46,797 nucleotides of DNA from Cytophagales bacterium (GTDB lineage Bacteria; Bacteroidota; Bacteroidia; Cytophagales; Cyclobacteriaceae): assembly GCA_024232835.1 (NCBI GenBank), contig JAAEPI010000342.1, forward strand, positions 1 to 46,797, given 5' to 3'. Under the pieces are notes generated by a model that saw only the letters and a list, made by a program, of their open reading frames with translations, did no database searches and was not told the DNA's origin. Shown piece after piece: positions 27,310-32,640 of this stretch (positions within the stretch are counted from its first letter, which is position 1; the number at the start of each line of letters is the position of its first letter). The position numbers were made by a program, and so were the translations under genes.

Positions 27310-27370
27310 GTTCAACAGTGTATTCATGTTTTGGCCTATCGGCCACACGAATGCTTAGTTATTAGAGAGC
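27310..27370 (-). repeat. attC-like element E (61 bp)
   Basis: On minus strand GCTCTCTAATAAC-TAA-GCATTCGTGTGGCC-GATA-GGCCAAAACATGAATAC-ACT-GTTGAAC; folds as imperfect hairpin; terminal GTTGAAC fits the integron core site GTTRRRY; contains the stop codon of the 27362-27982 gene. Confidence 0.65.
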
Positions 27371-27982
27371 TTTATTCTCCAGTTTTTCCGATAGCAATAA
27401 GTTAAGTGTTATCGAGTGGTTCAGGTGAACTAGAAGTTTATATGTTTCTATAATTTCAAGACTTTGTTCAAGAGTTACTTCATCAAAATGATAATGTTCG
27501 AATGGCACGTCCACAAGTCTCGGATCTTGTGCCAGAAAGGAATTGTAAGGTATTATTAAAGGTATTCCGCTGTAGTTATTACCTAGCTCTCTTAATAGTT
27601 CAGAGTAATTAGTCAACCTTTCTTTTATGGTAGTCCCTCTGCCTTGGTTGAAAATTACATTTTTAACCGCATTAACTTCCGTCGGGTTAATAAAGTGATA
27701 ATAGTCATTTCGACCACCGGAGGCATCAACAAGCTGTTCAGTTACACCGTCTAAAAATTTGATAAGAGATTTGCTCTCAGAATTGAGGAAAGTGATTCTG
27801 TTGTCGATTGAATCGAGTTCGACTTTAGTTTTGATTTTTTCAAAAAGTTCCTCACTAAATTCCCAAGCTGAATAGGCCATTAAGCCATTCCTAATGTTTA
27901 ACGGTGTTTCAGGTTCGTTGGGATTCTTTTCAGAACATGAAATGGCGAGGATCAGGATGAAAATATAGTTTATCGTCTTCAT
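27362..27982 (-). CDS. Hypothetical lipoprotein (cassette-borne gene)
   Basis: Lipobox ILILAISCSEK; start 14 nt from predicted cassette boundary. Confidence 0.6.
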   Translation of the reverse strand: MKTINYIFILILAISCSEKNPNEPETPLNIRNGLMAYSAWEFSEELFEKIKTKVELDSIDNRITFLNSESKSLIKFLDGVTEQLVDASGGRNDYYHFINPTEVNAVKNVIFNQGRGTTIKERLTNYSELLRELGNNYSGIPLIIPYNSFLAQDPRLVDVPFEHYHFDEVTLEQSLEIIETYKLLVHLNHSITLNLLLSEKLENKAL

Positions 27983-27986
27983 GTAT

Positions 27987-28108
27987 GCTCTCTAACGTCC
28001 AAATATGGCATGTGCCTCTGGACTTAATTAATTCTACTAAGGTATCGTTGGTGAATAGTAGTTTCAAATTTAATTATAGAGGCATTTGCTATATTGTTTG
28101 TTGTGGGG
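27987..28108 (-). repeat. attC-like element D (about 120 bp)
   Basis: Minus strand CCCCACAAC...CAAATGCCTCT ... AGAGGCACATGCCATATTTG GAC GTTAGAGAGC; inner arms complementary. Confidence 0.5.
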
Positions 28109-28247
28109 AGTTTCTTTCCCTCATCTTACGCAAATACGCTTTCATTTCTTCAAAAGTCATATCTTGCATTTCTTCATTCATTCGATCTCGAATTGCTCTT
28201 AATTTTTTTACCAAACCTTTTTCGGTCTTTACTTTTAAGTTATTCAT
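28089..28247 (-). CDS. Small antitoxin-like protein (52 aa) paired with the PIN toxin; overlaps its stop (ATGAATAA)
   Basis: MNNLKVKTEKGLVKKLRAIRDRMNEEMQDMTFEEMKAYLRKMRERNSPQQTI*; not in the ORF track (below length cutoff). Confidence 0.65.
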   Translation of the reverse strand: MNNLKVKTEKGLVKKLRAIRDRMNEEMQDMTFEEMKAYLRKMRERNSPQQTI

Positions 28248-28698
28248 AAGTTCCAAGTTCTAAGGGTGAATAAATTTCTATCATTTTGTATCCCTGCTTC
28301 AAGTTCACAGAATTGTAGCCCCTAATTCTATCAATGTTAACAATATGTTTAAAGTTCCAACTTACCAAAATGTCAGCGTGACACAAGGTTGCCAGAGCAA
28401 TGTGCAAGCAGTCTGCGTAGCTCGTTTTCCCAACTACTTTTTCAGTGATATAAGTTTTAGCAAGTTGTTCAGCTTCTTGACTTACGTCAAATGATTTAAT
28501 CTGGTAGTTGGGGATTGAATTCAGCAAATTCCTCACACGTTCAGGAGCATTTTCGAGTTCAGCAGTTAGAACCTCTGATATTATCAACTCGATGTTCTCC
28601 CTAATAATTCGATCAAAAAAGTGTACAGTTGGTTCAGAAAATTCCTCGTCAAAGTATCCTCCAAAAACGGAGGTGTCCAAGTATGCGGATTTGATCAT
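28240..28698 (-). CDS. PIN domain toxin-like protein (start reassigned to ATG at 28698)
   Basis: MIKSAYLDTSVFGGYFDEE...TSYADCLHIALATLCHADILVSWNFKHIVN. Confidence 0.85.
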   Translation of the reverse strand: MIKSAYLDTSVFGGYFDEEFSEPTVHFFDRIIRENIELIISEVLTAELENAPERVRNLLNSIPNYQIKSFDVSQEAEQLAKTYITEKVVGKTSYADCLHIALATLCHADILVSWNFKHIVNIDRIRGYNSVNLKQGYKMIEIYSPLELGTYE

Positions 28699-28701
28699 AT
28701 T

Positions 28702-28709
28702 CAAAGTTA
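28702..28709 (-). promoter_or_regulatory. -7 box TAACTTTG of a leaderless promoter for the PIN toxin gene
   Basis: Minus strand cgtgTAACTTTGaatATGatc: box ends 3 nt before ATG. Confidence 0.6.
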
Positions 28710-28747
28710 CACGAAATCCACGTCAGATGCCAGTGGCTCCAATTCCC

Positions 28748-29048
28748 CACAACGTCAAGCTCGCAGGTGTGCGCCCACCAGCCTGTAAAAAACACTAAAC
28801 TAGCGAAATCTTTAGATTCACGAGGGGTAGAGCGCATGGTTCTTCGCATGAGTAAACTGCCCAACCACCACAACTGTACCTACGAAGCACTGCATTCCAA
28901 AAGTCTAAGTCCAGAAAGAAAAAGCTGATCAACGAGCTGAACTTACAGAACCTGCCTGCCGGCATAGGCAGGTGGGTAGTGAAGCGGTTTGTTTCCTCAG
29001 GAGCTTGCAGAAACCACCATGGCACATGCCTGATCAGCGTCTGTTGTG
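28748..29048 (-). repeat. Long attC-like element A (301 bp; family of A/B/C)
   Basis: Ends CACAACG...CTGTTGTG; shares blocks with B and C (GTGTGCGCCCACCAGC, CTGCCCAACCACCACAAC, GGGTAGTGAAGCGGTTTGTTT, CATGGCACAT); carries two extra insertions. Confidence 0.8.
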
Positions 29049-29049
29049 C

Positions 29050-30285
29050 CTAGTGCGTCTCAAAGTCTGCGATCATATTCGATAGATATAATAGGGCGAG
29101 TGAATAATGATTGTGTCCTTCATATTTTTTTAGATAAACCTTGCCGCCATTGCTATTCAGATTATTCACCATCACTTCAGTATTTTTTTTATAGTAGACA
29201 ATGTTATCATCAGTGCCATGGTGGACATAAATGGGAGCGATAGGTTTCCAATTGTCTACCAGACTATTTTGATCAAATTTTTCAACCAGCTTTTTTCTAG
29301 TTTCCCCAGCTGTAAATTTTAGAATTTTAGAAGGCCTACTACTTGGCCTATCGATTAAAACATCCATTTGGTCATTCACTTCATATTTGAAGAATTTTTC
29401 CTTAGGAACAGGTGGGCCATCAGCGTATTCATTTATCGCATATAGGGTCCAAATCAGCACATCCAGATCCTCTTCGAAATCCAGCCATATAAAAGGCAGA
29501 AGAGTAAGAAATTTCTTTGCATAGTGTGATACATTGTAGAATCCCGCCAAAGGAGCATTCGCAGTAACTGTTATTGACTGAGCATATTCGCTTTCTATCA
29601 GTTTTTGGGTCGCAACACTTGCAGCCCCACCTTCTGACCATCCAGATAGAAATAACTTCTCATTGAGCCTTATTTTTTTTTCATTACAGAATTCGCGCGT
29701 AGCTAAAATGAGATCAACGGATTGCTCAGCTAACCTGTTATTAACAGAATAGCAGTGTTCATAATCACTCGTGTTCCCATACCCAACATAATCTGGAAGA
29801 CTAACAAGGTATCCATAGCTCGCTAAATAATTCCCGAATAGTCTTGTTTCATATTGTGAATCTTTCTCTTTTACTTTTTCTCCATTATACAGAGAGGGCG
29901 CGTCTAAACTCCCTTCACCTTTCGGGTACGGATAGGGGAGCATAGTTCCATGATGATATTGGATGTGGCTCATCGGCTCATCTGATTTGGGCACTACTAT
30001 AAGACCGGATAACTCAATCAATTCGTTTTGAAAAATGGAAGTATAAATGACACGGTACAAGTCAATGTCATGATTAGGGAGGTTTGATAAATCACCCTCC
30101 AATTCCTCGGCTTCAGGGAAGAATGAAATTATATCTGTTGCCTTAATTGTATTAATAAAATCAGCAGAAATTAGTTTTCCTCTTTTATTAATGAGGTTGG
30201 TATTTGTTGCACGTTCTTGAGCATAACTTTCACTGGAGTGGAGAAGGAAAGACAGAATTACTAATGAGAGAGAACATAGTTTCAT
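29050..30285 (-). CDS. Secreted alpha/beta hydrolase (secretory-lipase-like)
   Basis: Signal peptide MKLCSLSLVILSFLLHSSESYAQ; nucleophile elbow SGWSEGG; PDYVGYGNTSDYEHCY. Confidence 0.82.
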   Translation of the reverse strand: MKLCSLSLVILSFLLHSSESYAQERATNTNLINKRGKLISADFINTIKATDIISFFPEAEELEGDLSNLPNHDIDLYRVIYTSIFQNELIELSGLIVVPKSDEPMSHIQYHHGTMLPYPYPKGEGSLDAPSLYNGEKVKEKDSQYETRLFGNYLASYGYLVSLPDYVGYGNTSDYEHCYSVNNRLAEQSVDLILATREFCNEKKIRLNEKLFLSGWSEGGAASVATQKLIESEYAQSITVTANAPLAGFYNVSHYAKKFLTLLPFIWLDFEEDLDVLIWTLYAINEYADGPPVPKEKFFKYEVNDQMDVLIDRPSSRPSKILKFTAGETRKKLVEKFDQNSLVDNWKPIAPIYVHHGTDDNIVYYKKNTEVMVNNLNSNGGKVYLKKYEGHNHYSLALLYLSNMIADFETH

Positions 30286-30304
30286 TTGCTTTATTAGCAT
30301 TAGG

Positions 30305-30537
30305 CACAACGCACAGCTAGCAGGTGTGTGCCCACCAGCTTATAAAAAGCACTAAACTAGCGAAACTGCCCAACCACCACAACAGTATCCACGAAGAACT
30401 GAGTTCCACAAGATAAAACCCAGAAAGGAAAATGCGGCTGGAAGCAATGAAGTTTCAGAATGGGTAGTGTAGCGGACAAGTTCCCGATGAAGCTGGCAGA
30501 ATACTCATTTGGCACATAACTGCTAGCACCTGTTGTG
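30305..30537 (-). repeat. Long attC-like element B (233 bp)
   Basis: Terminal inverted repeat CACAACGCACAGCTAGCAGGTGTGTGCC / CACAACAGGTGCTAGCAGTTATGTGCC; conserved blocks with A and C. Confidence 0.8.
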
Positions 30538-30545
30538 GCTCGTTT

Positions 30546-30839
30546 TTATCCGATTGTCAAGTTCACCCGTTTGCCGAGTCCTATCTCCAGAAGTTTGTAA
30601 AGTGTTGAAAGTTGGATGTCGCTGTGTCCGTTCTCAATTCTTGAAATAAAGCTCTTTTTTGTTCCAGTTCTTTCAGCAAGTTGTTCCTGAGTTAAATCAG
30701 CTTCCTTACGAGCATCACGAATGATTTCACCAATTGCGAATGCCTTTGCTTTAATTTCAAAGTTTGCTCGTTCGGCAGTGCCAATCTTTCCGTACCTCTG
30801 GTCAAGGTGTTCGTCGAGTGTTGTTAAATGCTCTTTCAT
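30546..30839 (-). CDS. higA: HigA-type XRE family antitoxin
   Basis: IIRDARKEADLTQEQLAERTGTKKSFISRIENGHSDIQLSTLYKLLEIGLGKRV; 4-bp overlap with upstream higB. Confidence 0.85.
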   Translation of the reverse strand: MKEHLTTLDEHLDQRYGKIGTAERANFEIKAKAFAIGEIIRDARKEADLTQEQLAERTGTKKSFISRIENGHSDIQLSTLYKLLEIGLGKRVNLTIG

Positions 30840-31186
30840 TTTGATCGCTTTTTAAGTTCAAAATATTCGTTCTTAATCTTCAATGCTTTGTCAATTTCTT
30901 TGTTCGGTGTTTTCTGAGATTTCTTTTGAAATCCGTTGAAAAGTATAACCAAGTTCCCTTCATCGAAACAACAAAACACTCGGTAGATGTTGCTCCTATA
31001 TTCAATACGGATTTCAAAAAGTCCATCAGTTCCAGTCATATGTTTGAAGAACTTCTTAGGAATCCGTTCGGCTATTCGAACTAGGAACAGGACATGATCA
31101 ATCTTGTCTTTTAGTTTATCGTTCAGGGGATCGTAAAAGTCCTTGAAGTAATGTTTAAAAAAGACAAGTTGCCTTTGTTGGTCCAT
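30836..31186 (-). CDS. higB: HigB/RelE-type toxin
   Basis: MTGTDGLFEIRIEYRSNIYRVFCCFDEGNLVILFNGFQKKSQKTPNKEIDKA. Confidence 0.85.
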   Translation of the reverse strand: MDQQRQLVFFKHYFKDFYDPLNDKLKDKIDHVLFLVRIAERIPKKFFKHMTGTDGLFEIRIEYRSNIYRVFCCFDEGNLVILFNGFQKKSQKTPNKEIDKALKIKNEYFELKKRSK

Positions 31187-31190
31187 ACCA

Positions 31191-31212
31191 CAAAGTTAAC
31201 TAATAAGTTAAC
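31191..31212 (-). promoter_or_regulatory. higBA promoter (-7 box TAACTTTG, 31191-31198) overlapped by perfect palindromic operator GTTAACT-TATT-AGTTAAC (31195-31212)
   Basis: Box ends 4 nt before higB ATG (31186); palindrome overlaps the box. Confidence 0.65.
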
Positions 31213-31261
31213 ACGAAAAAAGTCTTAAAAGGTTCGAGAATCTGCGATCAGAAGTATGAGC

Positions 31262-31493
31262 CACAACGCTAAGCTAGCAAGTGTGTGCCCACCAGCTATT
31301 AAACTACGATAAAGGTAGCGCAACTGCCCAACCCCCACAAAAGCTTCTCTGATTCAATGCGCAAAGAAGATGTCCGTCCAGAAGAAAGGAAGGTGGGAGG
31401 AGAGAAGTAGAAACAGAAAGGGTAGTGGAGCGGTTTGTTTACTCAGAGGCCTACAGAAAGCATCATGGCGCATAACTGCTAGCGATTGTTGTG
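31262..31493 (-). repeat. Long attC-like element C (232 bp)
   Basis: Terminal inverted repeat CACAACGCTAAGCTAGCAAGTGTGTGCCC / CACAACAATCGCTAGCAGTTATGCGCC; conserved blocks with A and B. Confidence 0.8.
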
Positions 31494-31494
31494 C

Positions 31495-32553
31495 TTAGTG
31501 TTTTTTATTTTTTTTGTAGTTCTTAATCATTTTTCCAAAATCTTTATCCTTTTTATGTCTTTCTGCAACTGTCGATTCAAAATGCTCTTTTTCACGTTCC
31601 ATTTTTAGAAAGTTAGCATAAAAACTTTCTTCAATTTCTCCTCTGTCAACTGCAGCTAAAACAGCACAGTCAATTTCTGAAGTATGTGTACAATCCTTGA
31701 ATTTACAGTCTTTAGATAGTTTAATTATTTCTTCAAATGTCATCCCCAACCCTTCTGTTGAATCCGTAATTCCAACTTCTCTCATTCCTGGATTGTCAAT
31801 TATAATTCCGCCATTCTCAAGAACTAACAATTCCCTATGGCTTGTAATATGTCTACCTTTGTTTGTACTTATGCTAATTGTATTAGTTTTCATTAATTGT
31901 TTACCTGAAAGATTGTTCAAAAGAGTTGATTTCCCTACTCCCGATGAGCCTAACAAGCAGTAGGTTTTTTCTTTTTTGATATTCTCTTTGAGTTTTTCAA
32001 GACCATTTAAGGTTTCATTACTTATTTTAATTACAGGTACTTGTTTTATTCGTTCTTGAACTTTAGAAACCAACTCAGTTAATTCAGTATTATCTATTAA
32101 ATCTATTTTGTTGAGAATGATAATCGGTACTACATTTGATGTATAGCAAATGGTCAGGTATCTTTCTATTCGATTAATATTAAAATCCCTGTCAACTGCT
32201 TGTACAATAAAAGCATAATCAATATTTGTTGCTATAATTTGTTTCTCGCCTTGTTTTCCAACTGCTTGTCTTTCAATAATAGTTTCTCTTGGAAAGACAG
32301 AATGAATAAGTACTTTATTGTCATCATATTCAGAAATCGCAACCCAATCACCAACGGCAGGAAAATCCGACCTATTATGAGCCGAAAATCTTAAATTTCC
32401 GATTATCTCTGCCTCATATTCTTTTTCGGTAGTTTTTACAAAGTATCTTTCTTTGTGTTCTGATATAACTCGTCCAACTTCTAATGAATCAAGCTTTTGC
32501 TCTTTTCGGTAGTTTTCAAAATCTATGTTATATCCTAAATCTTCAAGTGTCAT
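31495..32553 (-). CDS. RsgA-like ribosome small-subunit-dependent circularly permuted GTPase (cassette-borne, possibly a paralog)
   Basis: ILNKIDLID (G4) before GSSGVGKSTLLNNLSG (G1), IIDNPGMREVG (G3), C-terminal CKFKDCTHTSEIDCAV zinc motif. Confidence 0.9.
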   Translation of the reverse strand: MTLEDLGYNIDFENYRKEQKLDSLEVGRVISEHKERYFVKTTEKEYEAEIIGNLRFSAHNRSDFPAVGDWVAISEYDDNKVLIHSVFPRETIIERQAVGKQGEKQIIATNIDYAFIVQAVDRDFNINRIERYLTICYTSNVVPIIILNKIDLIDNTELTELVSKVQERIKQVPVIKISNETLNGLEKLKENIKKEKTYCLLGSSGVGKSTLLNNLSGKQLMKTNTISISTNKGRHITSHRELLVLENGGIIIDNPGMREVGITDSTEGLGMTFEEIIKLSKDCKFKDCTHTSEIDCAVLAAVDRGEIEESFYANFLKMEREKEHFESTVAERHKKDKDFGKMIKNYKKNKKH

Positions 32554-32579
32554 TTCTTTTGTCTTGTATTAAGCACAAC

Positions 32580-32640
32580 ACCTTAGATAAACGCACTATT
32601 GCGTTTATCCACCACTCAAATATAAACGAATGCACCGTTT
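32580..32640. repeat. Hairpin-rich boundary of the accessory array, two ATAAACG/CGTTTAT stem-loops
   Basis: GATAAACGCA-CTAT-TGCGTTTATC and ATAAACGaatgcacCGTTTAT next to CACAAC at 32574. Confidence 0.5.

Follow-up and report, generated by a model that had tools for sequence, protein, structure and literature searches.

Elements A to D of a Cytophagales contig as probable attC-equivalents of an integron-like system with a non-IntI integrase

Introduction

Four intergenic elements, A to D, were analysed in a 46.8-kb stretch of DNA from a Cytophagales bacterium of the family Cyclobacteriaceae (the whole stretch is called the window below). The elements are most probably (probability about 0.87) the attC-equivalents of an integron-like gene-capture system, in which a XerA-like integrase other than IntI would act on folded sites. 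Integrons are the textbook gene-capture platform, and the extra domain of IntI is held to permit the use of folded sites. Typical integron cargo consists of toxin-antitoxin pairs and unknown ORFs, and integron cassettes have a start complementary to their own R''. In this study, sequence comparison gave the repeats, their cassette-specific ends, the position of the junctions, the covarying helices and the linkage of recombinases to arrays.

Results

Position, edges and spread of the sites

All four elements are read on the (-) strand. Element A spans 28748-29048 (301 bp; 28744..29052 with its R boxes, R' 28744-28753 and R'' 29043-29052), element B spans 30305-30538 (234 bp; 30301..30541, R' 30301-30310 and R'' 30532-30541), and element C spans 31262-31493 (232 bp; 31258..31497, R' 31258-31267 and R'' 31488-31497). 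The R boxes of A to C are 10 bp each. Element D (27987..28109; R' 27987-27996, R'' 28100-28109) is a short attC-like site with about 105 bp from AAC to GTT, and its R'' is the exact inverse of the PIN-cassette start (28744-28753). This array therefore combines long and short sites.

The first-pass annotation had described A, B and C as a family of very long attC-like sites with outer inverted repeats and shared internal blocks. They are true repeats that share every conserved block named, and they recur far above chance in the genome that carries the window. A BLAST search with A retrieved 29 matching pieces from this genome (a 5.04-Mb MAG in 1521 contigs), of which 15 near-complete copies were aligned; in this alignment, A is a site of the 232-bp type enlarged by two inserts, one of about 48 nt and one of about 22 nt. 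The right-hand ends of A, B and C lie 1, 8 and 1 bp from the stops of the ORFs at 29050, 30546 and 31495, in agreement with the 1-8 bp noted earlier. The outer inverted repeats noted earlier needed correction: on the coding (-) strand, the repeat is bounded by an invariant AAC on the 5' side and an invariant (C)GTT on the 3' side; the bases just outside are cassette-specific and form no part of the repeat. Extreme length did not hold up as a hallmark of the family. A to C, at 232-301 bp, do fall outside the attC range of about 55-150 bp, but shorter sites that fit this range are present in their own array (D) and in arrays of other genera.

Further copies in related genomes, which the first reading had called for, were found. 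A site sequence model matched 44 of 199 genomes and 26 of 87 genera of the Cyclobacteriaceae at E<=1e-8, among them Ekhidna lutea DSM 19307 (G207), and about 140 copies were collected; the inspected arrays have the element on the 3' side of an ORF. Self-comparison of sequence downstream of recombinases in other families also gave repeats, their cores measuring roughly 50-235 bp; the families were Flavobacteriaceae, Spirosomataceae, Hymenobacteraceae, Paludibacteraceae and others. In Flavobacteriaceae and Spirosomataceae the architecture is the same but the sites are shorter, and the system reaches across Bacteroidota.

Cassettes of the window

The array in the window is made up of genes on the (-) strand. 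Cassette 1 carries a gene for an RsgA-type GTPase (31495..32553; PF03193, E=7e-50), a usually housekeeping protein that is here cassette-borne. Cassette 2 carries a HigB/Gp49-type toxin-like protein (30836..31186; PF05973) and an HTH antitoxin-like protein of the HigA type (30546..30839; PF01381), cassette 3 an alpha/beta hydrolase (29050..30285; LIP/S9-like), and cassette 4 a PIN-domain protein (28240..28704; PF01850). A possible cassette 5 contains a gene with a weak GldM_1st match (27362..27982), and no exact inverted copy was found at its downstream end. The cassettes of Ekhidna carry ParE, a HigB/antidote pair, an M54 peptidase, YARHG and unknowns.

The first cassette starts at 32570..32579 with the gene-sense sequence GTTGTGCTTA, the exact inverse of the R'' of C (31488-31497). 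An attI-like dyad, GATAAACGCACTATTGCGTTTATC (32586..32609, without strand), is located 6 nt ahead of it. This dyad resembles those 3' of integrase genes, yet no integrase adjoins it, and no tyrosine recombinase was found on the contig of the window (C342). The array is an orphan array, with the dyad present and the integrase absent; a cluster of attC-like sites with no integrase nearby, as in a CALIN, describes the window's array only. The dyad may be an orphan attachment site or may mark a lost integrase.

Cassette ends pair across the gene

On the coding strand, a unit begins with GTT, seven cassette-specific bases and A, followed by the gene. Its 3' part consists of seven cassette-specific bases and AAC (R''), then the long site, which ends in (C)GTT (R'). 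In any one cassette, the two 10-bp ends are complementary to each other. The bases outside AAC and GTT differ from copy to copy and pair across the gene unit, not across the element. In the 46.8 kb, GTTGTGCTTA, GTTGTGGCTC, GTTGTGCCTA and GTTGTGGGGA each occur once per strand, at both ends of one cassette, and these exact 10-bp inverted pairs bound the cassettes of RsgA, HigBA, the hydrolase and the PIN protein. For GTTAGAGAGC, the remaining motif of the five tested in the window, there was no exact partner.

The rule was measured in 58 cassettes, with the AAC and GTT positions anchored by the site model. The ends of the same cassette matched at 6.10 of 7 variable bases, against 2.64 (sd 0.17) for shuffled ends (0/10,000), where kinship among copies stays in the statistics; the terminal variable bases matched within the element at 2.68/7. 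Base 8 on the start side was A in 58/58 cassettes, and the opposite base was a non-partner in 57. The attC arrangement, namely inverted R'' and R' with AAC and GTT and a start complementary to its own R'', was found. Four of the six arrays tested from other families obeyed the same rule (L249 5.9/6, L282 5.9/6, L273 6/6, L214 5.75/6). L227 and L237 gave no end signal with automatic offsets, and both show an exact first-cassette pair in the integrase-locus scan. A de novo search for cassette ends with loose windows was too noisy in the short-site arrays.

Junctions at GTT

Two near-identical cassettes of Ekhidna lutea are identical from (G)CGTT to just after the next (G)CGTTA. A Flaviramulus-type genome also has a duplicated cassette pair; its identity likewise starts at (G)CGTT, and its far end runs off the contig. 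The duplicated unit is the gene plus the site, not the element alone. In the genome of the window, one cassette start (120/120 nt) is found 3' of an attI-like dyad on contig C1077, after the integrase of that contig, and 3' of an attC-like site on contig C58; no base matches before GTT, where the partner changes, and these junctions, being taken from a MAG, may reflect a strain mixture. The identity boundaries at (G)CGTT agree with exchange at G^TT, the exact phosphodiester being beyond their resolution. In dif modules, 28-bp sites (two 11-bp arms and a 6-bp spacer) flank the module in inverse orientation. Judged from the cassette junctions alone, the present units have only 10-bp inverted ends and a long site, with dyads only before first cassettes.

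Recombinases linked to the arrays

The genome encodes two XerA-like enzymes, on contigs C1077 (305 aa) and C115, either of which may act on A to C. Close relatives of the C1077 enzyme (about 56-69% identity) were found in G035, G100, G110, G142, G145, G175, G207 and G223, with a partial one in G203; all of these genomes except G142 had element matches, and nearly all genomes with a relative at about 59% or more have elements. Where the assemblies allow, the arrays lie downstream of the recombinase and are co-directional with it (G145, G203 and G035), and the same holds for a second sub-clade (G101, G108, G113, G196 and G223-C56). In G145, the first cassette is located 32 nt after the integrase stop and a site follows 0.9 kb on. 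Downstream of the C115 integrase (L038, G000 C115, 13023-15012) come a dyad, GTTACCTTCC, a PIN-type cassette, GGAAGGTAAC and then a hairpin site of about 110 bp. For several other integrase copies the contig ends just after the gene, as is expected if the array broke the assembly. A contig scan gave 80 related loci.

Three further observations were made at these loci. The G035 integrase (L087:9623-10557) is split into two ORFs by a frameshift or an assembly error, and other genes lie between it and the array. In the near clade, a small zinc-finger-like protein of about 135 aa (CxxCGkPLxGRxDKrFCD...) is encoded divergently next to the integrase, at L030, L135, L136, L138, L141, L142, L143 and the G145 locus (L139). 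The recombinase of L291 (G066), which is near elements, was rejected as a clade member, its place in the tree being outside the clade.

Some recombinase homolog is present in about 73% of the family genomes, and about 14 of the 44 element-positive genomes gave no recombinase match at E<=1e-40 (orphan arrays). At the genome level, elements and the broad recombinase family were not associated; this co-occurrence is uninformative because most genomes have a homolog, and physical linkage is better evidence.

The stop codon of the integrase is often followed by a dyad, a few bases and then GTT. In 20 of 66 testable loci, a GTT 10-mer within 75 nt of the stop had its exact inverse 250-3500 nt on, compared with 1.8% of control windows (P=3e-19) and 0/13 true IntI loci; by sequence, these 20 loci appear to have an attI-like site beside the integrase that takes the first cassette. 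GTT was 39-47 nt after the stop in 14 of the 20. The other 46 loci had no exact first-cassette pair, so some such recombinases may do other things.

No protein of the genome exceeded the IntI cut-off of TIGR02249 (best 205 bits vs 265), and the best matches were split around profile positions 179-239. GLR and HxLRH were 90-98 residues apart (median 91) in the 119 enzymes that were linked to arrays or related to linked ones; in nearly all true IntI measured, the distance was 133. Sequence alignment settles that the linked recombinases are without the IntI insertion of about 42 residues. True IntI formed one fully supported group in the tree, apart from the array enzymes; in the class Bacteroidia it was seen only in G025 and G275, and among 100 relatives only in G025, where no element was found. 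The array enzymes scored below the IntI, XerC and XerD cut-offs, and two of four tested passed NF040815. Their best PDB matches were XerC-like 4a8e, XerA 5hxy and then IntI4 2a3v.

Site structure

The structure was analysed in 140 distinct copies with a core of 219-250 bp (quartiles 225-227), a set limited to copies of 215-262 bp and hence without A. Two covarying helices are common to these copies. The basal L arms paired with their own partner at -15.1 kcal/mol and with swapped partners at -9.0 kcal/mol (0/20,000 permutations), and the internal arms at -11.5 and -8.2 kcal/mol, respectively (0/20,000); here too, kinship among copies stays in the statistics. In the internal stem, CTGCCCA/TGGGCAG with its compensated variants, five of six pairs showed changes on both sides. 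The strongest covarying pairs include both helices, in a list that also has pairs fitting no helix. The basal stem was tested via duplex energies and covariation; RNAalifold on the whole alignment missed it owing to indels. A bottom-strand folding bias, which had been expected for attC, was not borne out, the top and bottom strands folding with about equal energies. Rfam covariance models gave no match to the element up to E=1, which told against the earlier suggestion of an encoded small RNA. The most plausible reading of the element from its sequence is an extended hairpin that contains two conserved stems.

Proposed mechanism

One strand of the site, possibly the bottom strand, would most likely fold into a long hairpin and serve as a single-stranded substrate. 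The hairpin would begin with the R box, followed by a short unpaired spacer, then an L-box stem (about 15-17 bp) and, deeper in the hairpin, the second conserved stem. A tyrosine recombinase would then cut at or beside G^TT and join the cassette to another site or to attI. This recombinase would belong to the XerA-like integrases that lack the IntI insertion; downstream of their genes come an attI-like site in the form of a dyad and an array in the same orientation. Because its two 10-bp ends can pair, an excised circular cassette would carry a well-paired R box; the inserted cassette would usually be without one.

Discussion

The reading of A to C as attC-like recombination sites is supported by the cassette-specific inverted ends, by cassettes that behave as units with GTT junctions, and by an extended covarying hairpin. 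The same repeats, intergenic, with inverted termini and at gene 3' ends, could also suggest spread by transposition, either of a MITE- or IS-like element or of a conserved sequence of the 3'-UTR or terminator type. This is barely credible, given that the termini vary by cassette, that they pair across the gene (6.10/7) and not across the element (2.68/7), and that the duplicated unit is the gene plus the site; neither the fixed inverted ends of a transposon nor duplication of a target would produce ends that pair across the gene unit. A structured RNA with a regulatory or guide-like role would account for the two covarying helices and the long conserved interior. The covarying basal arms, however, reach the recombination boxes, the sites lie at cassette junctions and Rfam gave nothing to E=1, which leaves this explanation highly improbable.

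The remaining alternatives accept the cassettes and concern the enzyme. A to C might be merely long attC sites of an ordinary integron, served in trans by a classical IntI in the manner of a CALIN. The logic of sites and cassettes is integron-like, the window's array has no integrase on its contig, and the relative G025 carries a true IntI; on the other hand, the genome has no IntI above the cut-off, no element was found in the one relative in 100 with IntI, the recombinases that adjoin the arrays are not IntI and have attI-like sites at an almost constant distance, and the tree places IntI in a group of its own with full support. We regard this as very unlikely. It is also possible, if on the whole unlikely, that the XerA-like enzyme or the host Xer pair recombines the same cassettes in double-stranded form, much as with dif modules, the hairpin having another purpose. 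The recombinase is without the insertion associated with the use of folded attC, and the attI-like dyads resemble the paired half-sites of Xer enzymes, but complementary cassette ends and covarying L arms fit the folding of one strand and would be needless for double-strand exchange. These last features favour an integron-like system that uses folded sites.

The likeness to integrons (IntI, attI, attC and CALINs) extends to co-directional single-gene or toxin-antitoxin cassettes with the site 3' of the gene, R''..AAC and GTT..R' boxes with a start complementary to its own R'', GTT junctions, an attI-like site beside the integrase, and hairpin sites with L boxes. The Bacteroidota arrays differ in their recombinase, which is without the insertion of about 42 residues and outside the IntI group, in cassette-end pairing that spans 10 bp before a fixed mismatch, in sites of 225-300 bp with a second conserved helix, and in an integrase that is co-directional with the array, with the attI-like dyad about 40 nt after its stop. 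The fold family and core sequence are shared with the simple recombinases XerA, XerC and XerD (NF040815), whereas the array enzymes fall below the XerC and XerD equivalog cut-offs and are linked to cassette arrays. For Bacteroidetes, IntegronFinder 2.0 reported nothing beyond In0 elements and a single complete integron, that of Salinibacter, and the same paper names the extra domain as the feature that sets IntI apart (PMC9024848). In a recombinase classification, this insertion is not fully conserved in an 'integron-like subgroup', yet is essential for function (PMC8138268); some array enzymes may have been filed there. No published description of a Bacteroidota non-IntI cassette system was found in open-access papers. 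The system works like an integron and fails the integron-integrase test, and against the open-access literature this variant is new.

The arrays also bear on resistance genes. In a plasmid collection, the 'xerD' beside tet(X3) or tet(X5) in Acinetobacter and on pHH1107 (L314, L315, L316 and L318) encodes 221 aa that are 76% identical to residues 338-558, the C-terminal part, of an Arundinibacter array integrase. It is followed 3' by the dyad GTGGATATATACGCC-ATTT-GGCGTATAGCCAC, TT, GTTATGTGCCAT and then tet(X), and the position of GTTATGTGCCAT fits the first-cassette rule. By these sequence matches, the 'xerD' is an N-terminally truncated array integrase of the Bacteroidota type with a putative attI-like junction. 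The start of the tet(X3) unit had no exact inverted partner; its end pairs with the start at 7/10 positions and its site is incomplete. The unit is consistent in sequence with a cassette of the Bacteroidota system, from which the xerD-tet(X)-res module differs in its truncated recombinase and incomplete site. The spread of xerD-tet(X)-res has been credited to ISCR2 (PMC7530245), and whether XerD mobilises tet(X) has been asked (PMC7473080). In Riemerella anatipestifer, resistance genes are taken up as a unit independently of homology by an unexplained mechanism, the unit being a gene with a 27-bp 5' region and a 140-bp 3' region that folds like attC (PMC13148043). By its published description, this integration resembles the present system in that a gene and an attC-like tail are taken in together.

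We consider it moderately probable that these cases belong to an overlooked, Bacteroidota-wide class of integrons, with a non-IntI integrase that uses folded sites without the IntI insertion and that mobilises tet(X) and the Riemerella cassettes, a class missed because detection tools depend on IntI and on attC sites being short. If so, the role of the 'xerD' adjacent to tet(X) (PMC7473080) and the homology-free uptake of resistance genes in R. anatipestifer (PMC13148043) would become testable questions. A second lineage that did this work without the extra domain would reveal a different route to the recombination of folded DNA, and a large uncatalogued pool of cassettes would be added in Bacteroidota.
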